64,000 nucleotides of DNA from NCBI GenBank assembly GCA_026014685.1, contig JAOZHW010000001.1, forward strand, positions 124,001 through 188,000. Reading direction: 5' to 3'. This document shows, piece after piece, positions 54,885 through 60,739 of the stretch. The position numbers and the translations under genes were made by a program. How positions within the stretch are numbered: position 1 is the first letter of the stretch; each line of letters starts with the position of its first letter. The DNA comes from Candidatus Bathyarchaeota archaeon. Its GTDB lineage: Archaea; Thermoproteota; Bathyarchaeia; Bathyarchaeales; Bathycorpusculaceae. The notes under the pieces were generated by a model. That model had not been told where the DNA came from. It saw only the letters and a program-made list of their open reading frames with translations, and did not search any database.

Positions 54885-55922
54885 CTATCGCCTACTGCTA
54901 GTTAGGTTATGAACTTTTTCTGTAATCCACTGAAGGTTCTCTGGGGCGGTCTCTTTTAGCACACCGTGTCCAAGGCTAAAGATATGTCCACAATAGGGCC
55001 GCGCTGCTTCAAGCACATGTTTTGTTTTGCGTTTCATGAATTCTCCACCTGCCAAAGCAGCCGCTGGATCCATGTTCCCCTGAACCGCAACCTGCTCGCG
55101 GCATCTCCGCCATACATCCTCCAGCGGCACTCGCCAATCAACGCTCAAAACATCAGCACCGGCTTTTTGGAATTGTTCTATTAGGGCACCTGAGTCTGCG
55201 CAGAAATGTATCTTTGGAACTTTGGGGATAGAGGCGAAGATGGTGTGGGTGTATTTTGAAACAAATTGATTGTAGTCTTCACAGGATAGGCAACCCGCCC
55301 AGCTGTCAAAAAGTTGAATGGCATGCACGCCATGTTTTACTTGGAAACAGAGGTATTCTTGTACCATTTTTGTCAGTTTTTCCATAAGCAACTGCCAAGT
55401 TTCAGGCTGACCATACATGAGTTGCTTGGTTTTTACTAAATCCTTGTTCACAATTCCGTCAATCATGTAGCTGGCTAAAGTGAAGGGTGCTCCTGAAAAA
55501 CCGATAAGCGGCACAGAATCCTCCAGTTTCTGCAGGGTTAACTCGATTGTGTCACTGATGTAGCCCATGTCCCGTTCTGCGTCAAACTCTTTCAAAGCCT
55601 TAACATCATCAAGTGTGCAGATAGGTTTCTGCATCACTGGGCCAACATTTTCTTCTATCTTGAAATTGAAACCCAAACCTTCCAAGGGCAACATGATGTC
55701 TGCAAACAGAATGCAAGCATCCACTCCTAAACGGTTTACGGCGTCTATAGCTACTTCAGAAGCAAGCTCGCTGTTTTTAGCCAATTCAGTTATTTGTAAG
55801 TTGCCTTTGAGTTGTTTGTAGCTTGGCATGTATCGACCTGCTTGCCGCATAAACCAAACAGGTGTATGTGCGGGTTGTTTTCTTCTGCAGGCATCCAAAA
55901 GGGTAGTGTTATCCAGAGTCAT
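54885..55922 (-). CDS. hemE: Uroporphyrinogen decarboxylase HemE
   Basis: HemE removes four carboxyls from uroporphyrinogen III to give coproporphyrinogen III. From the ATG at 55922 the protein is 345 residues, the usual size, with the signature PVWFMRQAGRYMPSYK (22-37) and FADIMLPLEGLG. The open frame runs further upstream, but the ATG at 55922 overlaps the radical SAM stop as TGATG and the family starts there. Its MRQAGRY motif separates it from corrinoid methyltransferases. Unusual beside siroheme-pathway-like radical SAM genes. Confidence 0.9.
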   Translation of the reverse strand: MTLDNTTLLDACRRKQPAHTPVWFMRQAGRYMPSYKQLKGNLQITELAKNSELASEVAIDAVNRLGVDACILFADIMLPLEGLGFNFKIEENVGPVMQKPICTLDDVKALKEFDAERDMGYISDTIELTLQKLEDSVPLIGFSGAPFTLASYMIDGIVNKDLVKTKQLMYGQPETWQLLMEKLTKMVQEYLCFQVKHGVHAIQLFDSWAGCLSCEDYNQFVSKYTHTIFASIPKVPKIHFCADSGALIEQFQKAGADVLSVDWRVPLEDVWRRCREQVAVQGNMDPAAALAGGEFMKRKTKHVLEAARPYCGHIFSLGHGVLKETAPENLQWITEKVHNLTSSRR

Positions 55923-57007
55923 CAGGTCCCTTCTTTTGTGGGTTGGTATATGCACCAGGGTTCTTCCGCCAAGAAATCGCCCGCAAGCGCTTGTGGTTGG
56001 TGGAGTCCACCGCAGACATCTATGTAGTTGCTTGAAAGACCATATGCCCTTGCGCGACATCCGCCACAGACCTCGCGGTAGCTGCAAACGTGGCATTTAC
56101 CTTTTAGGTTCTCGAAATTTCGCATCTTTTTTAGAATCGGCGCTTGCAACCAGATTTCTTGGAAGTCTTGATCCTTAATGTTTCCTAGGGCTATGGGAAG
56201 ATAGGGGCAGGGTGTCACTTCGCCGTTTGGGTAAATTCTGCAGTAGTTGAGTCCTGCGATGCAGCCGCGGCTCCAGCGGTTGGTTTCTAAACCCATCTGG
56301 CGGGCTATTCGCATGAATTGAGGCGCACACGTTGGTTTGACAGTCAAATCACTCGATGCGTATTTTTTGAGGATCCCTCTCACCATGCCTTCGTACATGG
56401 CGGGGGAAATGTCGCTGATTGTTTTTCCTCGACCAGTCGGAACCAAAAAGAAAACATGAAAATCCCTAACACCCAAACCCTTAGAAACGGAAACCACATT
56501 ATCGATGTCACTGTAGTTCTGTTGGGTTACCGTTACGTTGACTTGAACACCCACGCCGTTTCGCATGCAAGCTTTGATGCCCTCAACTGCTTTTTGCCAA
56601 GCGTGCTGTGTTCCTCGAAGATTGTTGTGGACTGCTGGTTGGCTGGAGTCGAGGCTGATTGCGACTTTTCTGATGCCGACATCAAACAGCTTTTTGGCTA
56701 CTGTGTCGTCGATGAGTGTTCCGTTGGTGCCCATCGTTACCCTAAGTCCTTTCTGTGCAGCGTAGCTTGCAAGTTCGAAAATGTCGTTTCGTAGGAGCGG
56801 TTCGCCCCCGCTTAGAATCAAGATAGGTTTGCTGACTTTGACTATTTGGTCTATGAGGCTTTTTCCTTGGGTGGTTGTTAATTCTTCTGTTTTTGCTTTT
56901 TCTTGGGCGTTTAGGTAGCAGTGGCTACAGTTGAGGTTGCATTTGAAGGTGGTATTCCAAGAGATGATTTTGGGAAGAAAAGTGACTGATGCTGGTGTGC
57001 CGAGCAA
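55922..57007 (-). CDS. Radical SAM/SPASM protein (AhbC/AhbD/NirJ type)
   Basis: A 361-residue enzyme with the radical SAM cluster Cys23, Cys27, Cys30 (CNLNCSHC), ILSGGEPLLR, and a SPASM-type C-terminus (YCRIYPNGEVTPCPYL, then CHVCSYREVCGGCRARAYG). The RARAYG...LAEEPWC layout is that of the heme-pathway enzymes AhbC, AhbD and NirJ. Between RARAYG and the final segment lies an extra stretch of about 17 residues (NYIDVCGGLHQPQAL). Cotranslated with hemE. Which step it catalyses cannot be decided by eye. Confidence 0.85.
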   Translation of the reverse strand: MLGTPASVTFLPKIISWNTTFKCNLNCSHCYLNAQEKAKTEELTTTQGKSLIDQIVKVSKPILILSGGEPLLRNDIFELASYAAQKGLRVTMGTNGTLIDDTVAKKLFDVGIRKVAISLDSSQPAVHNNLRGTQHAWQKAVEGIKACMRNGVGVQVNVTVTQQNYSDIDNVVSVSKGLGVRDFHVFFLVPTGRGKTISDISPAMYEGMVRGILKKYASSDLTVKPTCAPQFMRIARQMGLETNRWSRGCIAGLNYCRIYPNGEVTPCPYLPIALGNIKDQDFQEIWLQAPILKKMRNFENLKGKCHVCSYREVCGGCRARAYGLSSNYIDVCGGLHQPQALAGDFLAEEPWCIYQPTKEGT

Positions 57008-57016
57008 TCTGTTAAC

Positions 57017-58183
57017 CTACTTTGGGGTGTTTGCGGCTAATATGCAGGTGGTGTCTTGGTCTTCGATGTCTTTGTTTGTCAGGTAGGCTTTGGCGCGGCA
57101 GCCGCAACAGAGCTTTTTGTATTGGCAGGAACCGCATTTGCCTTTGAGGTTTGTTTTAGTGGCGATTGATTTGAGTAATTGGTTTTCTTTTAGTTTGGCG
57201 AGGTCGTTTTGGCGGACGTTGCCGAGTTTGAATTGCTGCATAAAGTTGCAGGGTAATATGTCGCCTTTGGCGGATACGCTGATGGGTCCTTGACCTACTG
57301 GGCAAGCGCTCATGGAGCTGAGGCGTTGAATTGCATGTGCAATATCGTAGCCTTTAGCTTTGAAGTATTCAACAGCTAAGGGTGCCAGCGAGGGGCAGGC
57401 GCCGATGTCGATTTCTGCTTCGCCTTTGACGATGACTTTGTCAAAAAGATATTCAGCTAAGGTGCCCCATTGCTCAGGAGAGATTCGCCAGAACTTTGCG
57501 TTTTCGGCGCGTCCAGTTTCGATGAGGTCACAGAGGTAAAACGCTTTGACGCCTAAGCTGAGGCCTTTTTCTATTATGTAGGGTACGTTGTCGTAGGTGT
57601 AGCTGCTCACGACTGTTTTGAAGGCGACTTTTATGCCTTTTTGAATGCATTTCTGGGCGTTTTCGATTATTTTGTCGTGACTTTGGGGCAAACCAACGAT
57701 TGAATCATGTTGGGCGGCAGGACCATACAGCGAGAGAGCGATGTAGTGTACGTTGTAGCTTAGCAGGGCATCGATTTTTTGGTCGTTAAGCAGGAGCCCG
57801 TTGCTGCTTAGTACGGTGGTTATTTGGTAATCGTTGCAGAGTTTTAGGATTTCAAAAATGTCTTTTCGCAGAAGAGGCTCTCCGCCCGTTAAGAAAATGA
57901 GTGGAACGCCCATTTCGTGAAGTTGAGCCAAAAAAGAAGCGACCTCTGAGGTGTTTAATTCGCCGGTTGTGTCTTGGGTGTCGCCGATGTAGCAGTGGGT
58001 GCAGTTTAGGCCGCATTGGCGGGTGGTGTTCCAGATGACGGTGCTTATGCCGTGTTTTGTGTAGGCTTCGCGGCACCGTTTTTCTACATGGGTCATTTCT
58101 TTGCTGTAGAAGAGGGATTTTAGGTGAACCACTGGGTGTGTGTCCTGCAACTGTGCAGGCTGTTTATTATATGGGTAAAACAT
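57017..58183 (-). CDS. Second radical SAM/SPASM protein (AhbC/AhbD/NirJ type)
   Basis: Up to 388 residues. Radical SAM Cys57, Cys61, Cys64 (CGLNCTHC), FLTGGEPLLRKDIFE, and a SPASM part (CPVGQGPISVSAKGDILPCNFM, then CGSCQYKKLCCGCRAKAY). Paralogue of the next gene and nine bases from it. The annotated ATG at 58183 sits almost on a TATA box, so translation may begin at a later start such as the ATG at 58093. The pair resembles the AhbC-AhbD pair of the archaeal heme route. Confidence 0.83.
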   Translation of the reverse strand: MFYPYNKQPAQLQDTHPVVHLKSLFYSKEMTHVEKRCREAYTKHGISTVIWNTTRQCGLNCTHCYIGDTQDTTGELNTSEVASFLAQLHEMGVPLIFLTGGEPLLRKDIFEILKLCNDYQITTVLSSNGLLLNDQKIDALLSYNVHYIALSLYGPAAQHDSIVGLPQSHDKIIENAQKCIQKGIKVAFKTVVSSYTYDNVPYIIEKGLSLGVKAFYLCDLIETGRAENAKFWRISPEQWGTLAEYLFDKVIVKGEAEIDIGACPSLAPLAVEYFKAKGYDIAHAIQRLSSMSACPVGQGPISVSAKGDILPCNFMQQFKLGNVRQNDLAKLKENQLLKSIATKTNLKGKCGSCQYKKLCCGCRAKAYLTNKDIEDQDTTCILAANTPK

Positions 58184-58190
58184 ATAAAAG
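58181..58190 (-). promoter_or_regulatory. TATA box of the radical SAM/hemE operon
   Basis: Minus-strand CTTTTATATG overlaps the annotated start at 58183. A transcript would begin near 58160, which argues for a downstream start codon in the first radical SAM gene. Confidence 0.55.
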
Positions 58191-58245
58191 TTACTAAAAA
58201 CGGAAGTTTTCTAATAATTTATTCCGAATTTCGGTAAAATGTAGA

Positions 58246-58698
58246 TTATAGATCAAATGACGGCTTAATCTTCAACAATTTAGTCGTAGCAAAAACCACA
58301 ACATCACTAACCCCCGAAATCAACTCCAAACGCCTTCTCAAATCATTCAAATGCCCCAAATCACGCGTATTAACAACCGCAACAACGTCATAGCCGCCTG
58401 TGCTCTGAAAAACATGCCGCGTCTCGCTTAGTTTGGCAATTTCAGCTGATGCACTATCAAACAAGACAGGATTAATTTTAATCATAATCACCGCTGTAAC
58501 GGGAAAACCGATTTTTGCAGGATCCAAAAGCGCTGTAAATTTGGTTATTACGCCTGCTTCTTTGAGTTTTTTTACCCTGTATCTGATTGTGGCTTCGTCC
58601 ACGCCGATTTCGTTTGCTATCTCCGAAAAAGCTACACGTCCATTGCTCTGTAGCGCATTTAGGATTTTTCGGTCAACACCATCGAGGGTTGCGGGCAC
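58246..58698 (-). CDS. Lrp/AsnC-family transcription regulator
   Basis: A 150-residue regulator: helix-turn-helix LDGVDRKILNALQSNGRVAFSEIANEIGVDEATIRYRVKKL and a RAM-type ligand domain (TRHVFQSTGGYDVVAVVNTRDLGHLNDL). It lies upstream of the radical SAM/hemE operon on the same strand and may control it. It lacks the RRIGAxF segment of the AsnC-like siroheme decarboxylases AhbA/AhbB, so a regulator is the better call. Confidence 0.88.
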   Translation of the reverse strand: MPATLDGVDRKILNALQSNGRVAFSEIANEIGVDEATIRYRVKKLKEAGVITKFTALLDPAKIGFPVTAVIMIKINPVLFDSASAEIAKLSETRHVFQSTGGYDVVAVVNTRDLGHLNDLRRRLELISGVSDVVVFATTKLLKIKPSFDL

Positions 58699-58773: not shown

Positions 58774-58807
58774 TTCGGCGGTTGTATCTATCATGTTGGC
58801 GAGTTGA

Positions 58808-59032
58808 ATGCGAGATTTCGACGTTGTTATTCTAGAAGACGAGACAGGCGGCTACGTAGCCATAGTGCCCGCCTTGCCAGGGTGCCACACCCAAGGCGAA
58901 ACATTAGCCGAAGTGATGGAAAACGCAAAAGAAGCCATTGATCTTTATTGGGAAACTCTCTCTGCAGAAGAGAAGAAAGAGTTGTTGAAAGAAAAAGTTG
59001 TGGGCATACAAAAAGTGAAAGCTCTTGCCTAA
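58808..59032 (+). CDS. HicB-family antitoxin
   Basis: A 74-residue HicB: FDVVILEDETGGYVAIVPALPGCHTQGETLAEVMENAKEAI is the partial RNase H fold of the family. It has no C-terminal DNA-binding domain, as in short HicB forms. The gene order antitoxin-toxin and the 8-base overlap with the next gene fit type II HicBA pairs. Confidence 0.88.
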   Translation: MRDFDVVILEDETGGYVAIVPALPGCHTQGETLAEVMENAKEAIDLYWETLSAEEKKELLKEKVVGIQKVKALA

Positions 59033-59258
59033 AATTCCGCCGATTAATTCAAGCCAATTAATCAAAATTTTGGAAAAAGAAGGCTTCCACGTTATCCGTC
59101 AAAAGGGTTCACATGTTATTCTTATAAATCAAGAAAAAACAAGGATAGTTATCCCCATGCATCCGGGAAAAGACATTAAACCGGGGCTACTCAGAGCAAT
59201 ACTTCGAGAAGCAGGGATAAACAGAGAAAAATTTCTCCAACTATTAAAGGGAAGATAA
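59025..59258 (+). CDS. HicA-family toxin (mRNA interferase)
   Basis: A 77-residue double-stranded-RNA-binding-fold protein, TTG start. SSQLIKILEKEGFHVIRQKGSHVIL carries the catalytic His in the GSHxxL motif, and VIPMHPGKDIKPGLLRAILREAGI completes the fold. HicA cuts mRNA when free of HicB. Followed five bases later by cysS, so cysS may be transcribed from the same unit. Confidence 0.88.
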   Translation: MPKIPPINSSQLIKILEKEGFHVIRQKGSHVILINQEKTRIVIPMHPGKDIKPGLLRAILREAGINREKFLQLLKGR

Positions 59259-59263
59259 CCTTC

Positions 59264-60739
59264 ATGCAAGCAAACATCTACTTTTTTAACACTTTAACAC
59301 GGAAAAAAGAAGCCTTTGTGCCGCTTGAAGCGGGGAAAGCCAAAATCTACACTTGTGGTCCCACAGTTTACGATTACGCGCATATCGGTAACTTCCGCGC
59401 CTTCCTCTTCGAAGACCTTCTAAAGCGTTGGTTGACTTACCGCGGCTACAAAGTTACCCACATCATGAACTTAACTGACATAGACGACAAAACCATCAAA
59501 GGCAGCCAAAAACAAGGCATCCCACTACGCCAATTCACCGAATTCTACGTGAAAGCCTTCTTTGAAGACATAAAAGCCCTAAACATTCAACCCGCCGACG
59601 TGTACCCCAAAGCCACAGACCACATCCCCGAAATGATCCAAATAATCAAGACTCTGATGGCGAAGGGTGTGGCTTACAGGGGCGAAGACGGCTCCATCTA
59701 CTTCTCCGTCGCTAAGTTCCCCCAATACGGCAAACTTAGCCACCTAAAAGTCGGCGAACTCAAAGCAGGCGCACGAGTTAGCCAAGACGAATACGCTAAA
59801 GAAGAAGCCCAAGACTTTGCGCTCTGGAAAGCGTGGACGCCCGAGGACGGAGACGTGTTTTGGGAGACGGAGTTGGGGAAGGGCAGACCGGGCTGGCACA
59901 TCGAATGCAGTGCAATGAGCACCAAATACTTGGGCGAAACCTTTGACATTCACTGCGGCGGAGTGGACAACATGTTTCCCCATCACGAAAACGAAATCGC
60001 ACAGAGCGAGGCAGCAACGGGCAAACCCTTCGTCCACTACTGGATGCATAACGAGCACCTCCAAGTCGAAGGCAAAAAAATGAGCAAGCGCTTCGGCAAC
60101 TTTTACACGCTCCGCGACCTCCTCGCCAAAGGCTACGACCCAATCGCAATACGCTACCTACTCATGTCAACGCATTATCGGCAGCAATTCAACTTCACCT
60201 TTGAAGGGCTGGAGGCTGCGAAGTCGGCTGTGGAGAGGCTGCGGAATTTTGTGCGGCGACTCCACGAAGCCGAAGGCACAACGGCTACTGGAAAAGTTGC
60301 CACTTTAACTGCTAAGCTTGAGGCGTGCTTCGGAGGCTCCATGGACGACGACCTAAACATCGGCATCGCGTTGTCCTCGCTGTTTGATTTCGTGCGGGAA
60401 ATGAATGCTTTGCTTGACGCTAATTTGGTTAGCAAGGCTGAGGCGGCGGAGGTCGGTGGTTTGATGATGCGCATCGACACGGTTTTAGGAGTGATAGGTA
60501 ACGTGGAAGTGTACACAGTCCAAGTCAGCGATTTTATTAAGGCTACAGACTCAGTTACCGTTGAAAAATTCCGATCTGAAGAATATAATGAAATAATTGC
60601 GTTAGTTCAAAAACGTGAGGCAGCTCGAAAAGCTAAGAACTGGAAAGAAGCCGACGCCATCAGAGCCCAACTCAAAGCCATGGGCATCATACTCGAAGAC
60701 ACTGCACAGGGCGTAAGGTGGCACAAAGAGAAAGCTTAA
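59264..60739 (+). CDS. cysS: Cysteinyl-tRNA synthetase
   Basis: A 491-residue class I synthetase that charges tRNA-Cys. It has CGPTVYDYAHIGNFRAF (HIGH-type motif and the first zinc Cys), the LGKGRPGWHIECSAMS zinc region, and KKMSKRFGNF (KMSKS). The anticodon-binding helices at the C-terminus are intact. A canonical CysRS means the SepRS/SepCysS route is not the only one. The stop overlaps the convergent lplA stop by four bases. Confidence 0.95.
   Translation: MQANIYFFNTLTRKKEAFVPLEAGKAKIYTCGPTVYDYAHIGNFRAFLFEDLLKRWLTYRGYKVTHIMNLTDIDDKTIKGSQKQGIPLRQFTEFYVKAFFEDIKALNIQPADVYPKATDHIPEMIQIIKTLMAKGVAYRGEDGSIYFSVAKFPQYGKLSHLKVGELKAGARVSQDEYAKEEAQDFALWKAWTPEDGDVFWETELGKGRPGWHIECSAMSTKYLGETFDIHCGGVDNMFPHHENEIAQSEAATGKPFVHYWMHNEHLQVEGKKMSKRFGNFYTLRDLLAKGYDPIAIRYLLMSTHYRQQFNFTFEGLEAAKSAVERLRNFVRRLHEAEGTTATGKVATLTAKLEACFGGSMDDDLNIGIALSSLFDFVREMNALLDANLVSKAEAAEVGGLMMRIDTVLGVIGNVEVYTVQVSDFIKATDSVTVEKFRSEEYNEIIALVQKREAARKAKNWKEADAIRAQLKAMGIILEDTAQGVRWHKEKA

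Follow-up and report, generated by a model that had tools for sequence, protein, structure and literature searches.

Why would an anaerobic archaeon keep hemE beside genes for two radical SAM enzymes? In archaea, the presence of a heme pathway is usually judged by the ahb genes alone, and HemE is not used by the siroheme route (AhbA/AhbB, AhbC, AhbD). The question is raised by a 64,000-nucleotide stretch, here called the window, of a genome of the Bathyarchaeia (Candidatus Bathyarchaeota archaeon, GCA_026014685.1, contig JAOZHW010000001.1, positions 124,001 to 188,000). On its minus strand, at window positions 54885-58698, a gene for an Lrp-type regulator (lrp) is followed in order of transcription by two radical SAM/SPASM genes, denoted rSAM-A and rSAM-B, and by hemE. 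A first, sequence-only reading of the window had proposed a hybrid path in which HemE makes coproporphyrin(ogen) III and a radical SAM enzyme completes heme or a modified tetrapyrrole. In our judgement there is about an even chance that the operon is a heme-supply unit that replaces ahbABCD, leading from HemE to heme b without oxygen.

The same gene order was found in two further species of Bathyarchaeia (G018, contig JAMDCQ010000014; G045, contig QYYE01000055). Across the three species, the ratio of non-synonymous to synonymous substitution rates (dN/dS) was 0.05-0.13 for each of the four genes, indicating purifying selection; the block is therefore not a chance arrangement. With order and selection both maintained, the earlier view that hemE and the two SPASM genes form one operon with a TGATG junction is confirmed. 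The genes are tightly spaced: 113 nt separate lrp from rSAM-A, 9 nt separate rSAM-A from rSAM-B, and rSAM-B and hemE overlap by one base. The start of rSAM-A was placed at GTG 58132, in agreement with the starts of its orthologues; the ATG at 58183 in the original list of open reading frames lies further upstream, and the 403-residue hemE frame of that list is an upstream extension of the 345-residue gene. Contamination was considered and ruled out, as the operon lies on a 220-kb contig (of a 2.32-Mb genome) and adjoins cysS in two species.

Judged by its sequence, the product of hemE is a genuine member of its family. It exceeded the curated equivalog cut-off of TIGR01464 (385 versus 302.95 bits) and is 37% identical to HemE of E. 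coli, 42.5% to that of Nonomuraea, and 36% to that of Haloterrigena. The motifs WFMRQAGRY, FADI, GAPFTLASY, and SLGHG, which we take to be those of the active site, are all present, invariant or conservatively kept relative to the Haloterrigena enzyme. True hemE was found in only three of 151 relatives. Elsewhere in the genome, one cluster encodes HemA, HemL, HemB, HemC, HemD, SUMT, SirC, and an anaerobic cobalamin set with a CbiX-CbiC fusion (HemB, CbiX, and CbiC were identified by profile, the other names read from sequence); uroporphyrinogen III, the substrate of HemE, is therefore made. A hybrid path presupposes that no separate ahb cluster exists, and none was found in this 99% complete genome. 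AhbA/AhbB (PF17805), present in 19 of the 151 relatives, gave no match at E ≤ 0.001 in this genome or in those of the two species that share the operon. The possibility that other radical SAM genes of the genome are a hidden AhbC or AhbD was also rejected: among ten matches to the AhbD profile, reviewed against references, none was orthologous to either. This interrupts the siroheme route that would be expected.

The regulator provides the main link to heme. Orthologues of Lrp were found in 14 of 32 genomes of the genus, scoring 123 to 308 bits as compared to 74 bits for the next paralogue. All 14 lie directly upstream of a cassette, either the rSAM-A/B pair (four genomes) or ahbAB-ahbC (ten), and no orthologue occurs in the 12 genus genomes without either cassette. 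Just past the lrp stop codon, the rSAM loci carry the palindrome TACCGAAATTCGGAA, TTACGAAATTCGGTA, or TTGCGAAATTCGATA, the core CGAAATTCG being invariant in all four. The ahb loci carry the related TTGCGGAATCCGCAA or a near form, and one of them (G023) has the intermediate CTGCGAAATCCGCAA. Best matches to the pattern TTGCGRAATYCGCAA differed at 0-3 positions in all 14 loci, compared with 5-7 after six other lrp genes used as controls. Shuffling gave p values of 0.0003-0.005 for the four rSAM loci, with a pattern that was written after the sequences had been seen; a search for the putative operator in the window alone did not rise above chance. It is chiefly because regulator and palindrome are common to ahb operons that we place this operon in heme metabolism. 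Since the Lrp orthologues always stand upstream of the rSAM pair or an ahb cluster, with a related palindrome, the operon appears to stand in for ahbABCD, and one regulator may govern interchangeable heme operons. The hybrid path is supported in part: by the tetrapyrrole context, by the lack of AhbA/AhbB and of other AhbC or AhbD orthologues, by the position of rSAM-B outside the peptide maturases, and by an Lrp and putative operator that ahb operons in sister species also have.

The distribution of the pair was examined across 257 genomes of the class. rSAM-A occurs in seven, with rSAM-B adjoining it in every case, and in no other group that we found. Within the genus, AhbAB was found in 16 genomes and rSAM-A in four, without overlap (chance probability 0.05, ignoring relatedness). 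Outside the genus, one genome (G111) has both. One of its loci encodes AhbA-AhbB-HemA-AhbC, with no AhbD beside it, and another the rSAM-A/B pair (L100:9586-13392 and L070:9553-11751, respectively); rSAM-B could act as the AhbD of this organism.

The AhbC/AhbD/NirJ-type label first given to the two radical SAM proteins is not supported as it stands: neither is an orthologue of AhbC, AhbD, or NirJ by curated cut-off or by tree. Both have CX3CX2C and a complete eight-cysteine SPASM set, with spacings of 21, 17, 37, 2, 5, 2, and 34 in rSAM-B and of 30, 17, 37, 2, 5, 2, and 17 in rSAM-A (cysteines 40/44/47 and 246/277/295/333/336/342/345/363). These spacings fit the published AhbD motif, CX20-33CX17CX36-37CX2CX5CX2CX17-35C (PMC10452713). 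The motif is not specific, however, since a paralogue of about 700 residues bears the same cysteine motifs (by eye). In this fusion protein (694 residues in the host genome; L118:454-2538, contig C7), the C-terminal half is closer to rSAM-B than any other paralogue, and the N-terminal 340 residues match no Pfam family.

rSAM-B scored 397 bits against the NirJ2 profile (TIGR04055) and 357 bits against that of AhbD (TIGR04545), both below a cut-off of 500, and can thus be filed as neither. The AhbD cut-off is strict for this lineage, because the operon-defined AhbD of a sister species (G007) reached only 391 bits. As functional proof the AhbD score was ruled out, since at least two paralogues of another kind in the same genome scored 300-359 bits. 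In a maximum-likelihood tree of 45 sequences, with NirJ2 represented by one sequence (Paenibacillus, 44% identical to rSAM-B), rSAM-B grouped with this NirJ2 and the 700-residue family (support 99/97). The sister clade (95/94) united TIGR04053 with the AhbD proteins of sulfate reducers and of this genus. The unusual 17-residue insertion remarked on earlier is real (I329-F345); it is shared by the orthologues of rSAM-B and gapped in AhbD of G007 and G012. It is not unique to rSAM-B, since a similar one occurs in the 700-residue paralogue, and the last cysteine spacing, 34, falls within the published 17-35.

rSAM-A is more isolated. Its best NCBIfam match was TIGR04053 (191.6 bits against a cut-off of 395); against AhbD (TIGR04545) it scored 186 bits. 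Assignment to AhbC, NirJ, or NirJ1 failed, with profile scores far below the cut-offs and a tree position beside AhbC/NirJ supported at only 49/57. It forms a long branch of its own, no relative was found in viral contigs, and we consider it probably a lineage confined to the Bathyarchaeia. A structure model had a mean predicted local distance difference test score (pLDDT) of 59, with low confidence in the SPASM half, and was not used.

From these observations we infer the following path. HemE would convert uroporphyrinogen III, supplied by the cell's own HemA, HemL, HemB, HemC, and HemD, to coproporphyrinogen III. This would be oxidized and receive iron, the latter perhaps through the CbiX domain in the CbiX-CbiC fusion, to become Fe-coproporphyrin III. 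rSAM-B could work like AhbD, decarboxylating the ring A and B propionates of Fe-coproporphyrin III to vinyls and so producing heme b without oxygen. Such an end step has precedent, as AhbD has been described as an alternative terminal enzyme of the bacterial coproporphyrin route (PMC7242693, PMC10548856). rSAM-A would act at an intermediate or parallel step, the most plausible candidate being oxygen-independent coproporphyrinogen oxidation, a reaction for which CgoN offers a precedent (PMC10965808). Lrp would control the operon through the palindrome past its own gene. A more specific proposal we hold only tentatively and think unlikely: HemE feeds both radical SAM enzymes, rSAM-A is a new class serving the stage from coproporphyrinogen to Fe-coproporphyrin with no classical ferrochelatase, and the substrate is interchangeably made by HemE or imported by a membrane protein.

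Several observations weigh against the operon as a heme-supply unit that replaces ahbABCD. SirC and HemA-HemD, among the genes the sequence-only reading had pointed to, are present, but no member of the ferrochelatase family (CpfC, PF00762) was found in the genome; a weak PF00762 match in G007 coincided with its CbiX-CbiC fusion gene. The textbook coproporphyrin route is therefore without a chelatase, and this gap is where the hybrid path falls short. So, too, does it at the four of seven pair loci that have no hemE (G009 and the Bathyarchaeum-type G036, G111, and G117); two of these four genomes are closed and also without AhbAB. Nor was an enzyme that oxidizes coproporphyrinogen found, no search having been aimed at one. 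No user of heme was recognized: the sole b-type cytochrome family tested (PF02665) has no member in any of the 151 relatives, and Bathyarchaeum tardum, which carries the pair without hemE, reportedly lacks c-type cytochromes (PMC10477458). Nor is rSAM-B orthologous to AhbD: the approximately unbiased test rejected its grouping with AhbD (p = 2.8e-9; p = 0.004 with TIGR04053 added), but did not reject NirJ2 with rSAM-B alone (p = 0.13), with a single NirJ2 in the tree. The 700-residue paralogue is the weak point of the rSAM-B placement. Its family is widespread across the Bathyarchaeia with no heme genes nearby, and it also occurs in genomes without any heme cluster.

The loci without hemE suggest that the substrate may be supplied otherwise, perhaps by import, and they underlie the first alternative. 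Directly before the pair, all four encode a protein of 184-206 residues with six predicted helices (e.g., L068:9206-9772, L071:13841-14461), which is possibly an importer. Supply may then have been swapped: rSAM-A and rSAM-B would act on a coproporphyrin-type compound that is imported by the membrane protein in these relatives and made by HemE here. Excretion of coproporphyrins is common among other microbes, and hemB was not found in G009. That genome is a draft, however, the other three (G036, G111, and G117) do have hemB, and the membrane protein passed no Pfam or NCBIfam threshold and gave a structure model too poor to interpret (mean pLDDT 44). We regard a supply swap as unlikely in its own right; it partially overlaps, and is compatible, with the heme-supply reading. 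In the Bathyarchaeum-type genomes, a membrane-anchored molybdopterin oxidoreductase (PF00174) is encoded about 1 kb from the pair (L068:12969-13649).

The product of the pair might instead be a modified tetrapyrrole distinct from heme b, such as a coproporphyrin that is decarboxylated in part or changed in some other way, with Lrp sensing heme-type products generally. The missing ferrochelatase and the report on B. tardum would both fit, as would the distinct, long-branched lineage of rSAM-A, and NirJ of the same superfamily makes products other than heme b (PMC12505453). Replacement of heme synthesis is nevertheless the simplest account of the specific tie to the regulator and operator found at ahb operons and of the near-exclusive distribution relative to AhbAB in the genus, and we place this second alternative, also unlikely, behind the first. 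Lower still, and improbable, is the idea that hemE joined an older operon and is functionally separate from it, rSAM-A and rSAM-B being AhbC/AhbD-like enzymes on siroheme-derived substrates. The four relatives with the pair but not hemE, and SUMT and SirC in the genome, would suit it. However, six of the seven pair genomes have no AhbA/AhbB, which must act before AhbC, and the stop/start overlap and the retention of hemE beside the pair in all three species having it argue for joint function. That the two are peptide maturases with hemE nearby by accident is very improbable, and was rejected on tree and gene context: although SPASM domains are common among such maturases, and unrelated paralogues of this genome also reach high scores with profiles of tetrapyrrole families, no gene for a precursor peptide was noticed next to the pair, rSAM-B scored 397 bits as NirJ2 but about 160 on the best maturase profile, PqqE and GDL-type maturases joined neither protein in a tree with few maturases and long branches, and the Lrp linkage points elsewhere.

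Features of the lrp-rSAM-A-rSAM-B-hemE block, in window coordinates
Feature	Position	Strand	Basis
lrp, Lrp/AsnC-type regulator, 150 aa, first gene of the block	58246..58698	-	Pfam HTH_24, HTH_AsnC-type, AsnC_trans_reg
Putative operator TACCGAAATTCGGAA, 15-bp near-palindrome directly past lrp	58222..58236	-	Core conserved across rSAM-type loci
rSAM-A, radical SAM/SPASM, 371 aa, GTG start	57017..58132	-	PF04055, PF13186
rSAM-B, AhbD/NirJ2-like radical SAM/SPASM, 361 aa, TTG start	55922..57007	-	NCBIfam scores, tree
Codons of the 17-residue insertion in rSAM-B (I329-F345, includes C332)	55973..56023	-	Alignment gap in AhbD of G007/G012
TGATG, rSAM-B stop and hemE start sharing one base	55920..55924	-	Sequence reading
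hemE, uroporphyrinogen III decarboxylase, 345 aa, ATG start	54885..55922	-	TIGR01464

Between lrp and cysS, on the plus strand (58800-59265), two short open reading frames resemble HicB/HicA toxin-antitoxin genes, as read by eye.

These results suggest that some Bathyarchaeia, which are among the most abundant sediment archaea, swapped the ahb route for a bacterial-type HemE and kept the regulator and a related operator. If true, archaea would have an oxygen-independent, HemE-based path to heme and a new radical SAM family, and genomes without ahbAB should not be labeled heme-negative.

Like the siroheme route of Methanosarcina barkeri and the sister species G007 and G012, the operon belongs to an anaerobic archaeal host, and, as in the two sister species, two SPASM radical SAM genes lie downstream of an orthologous Lrp and a related operator. 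Unlike that route, it includes HemE, its genome has no AhbA/AhbB, and its radical SAM proteins are not orthologues of AhbC or AhbD. The bacterial coproporphyrin route in which AhbD replaces ChdC is similar in that HemE makes coproporphyrinogen III and a radical SAM coproheme decarboxylase would finish the path; it differs in having CpfC, no extra radical SAM protein, and a bacterial host. Haloarchaeal plasmids (Haloterrigena turkmenica, Halorussus) carry an archaeal HemE, 36% identical to that of the window, in hemE-hemG-hemH cassettes, where an oxidase and a ferrochelatase, rather than two radical SAM genes, stand beside it. These cassettes (L221:6004-9408, L222:4989-9696) are of the oxygen-type coproporphyrin kind. 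The Firmicutes cassettes NirJ1-NirJ2-AhbAB (a Paenibacillus polymyxa plasmid, Dehalobacter) hold a NirJ2 of the rSAM-B clade; there, however, its partners are a fused siroheme decarboxylase and an orthologue of AhbC/NirJ1, and the cassette has no hemE. The Paenibacillus example (L178:7800-11007), encoding NirJ1, NirJ2, and a fused AhbAB-like protein, is apparently a siroheme-type heme cassette, and in Dehalobacter the AhbAB/AhbD/AhbC set has been taken as the heme route (PMC4751268). The 700-residue fusion protein shares with rSAM-B a radical SAM/SPASM half and the insertion, but has the extra N-terminal region and a wide distribution away from heme genes. The passages found in open-licence papers on Bathyarchaeia (PMC7110647, PMC10477458, PMC11697101, PMC12694404) speak of cobalamin or chlorophyll-like genes, not of this operon. 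An archaeal HemE, and AhbD alongside genes of the coproporphyrin pathway, had each been known already; what appears to be new is an operon of HemE and radical SAM genes in an anaerobic archaeon, under the regulator of ahb operons, together with the rSAM-A family.

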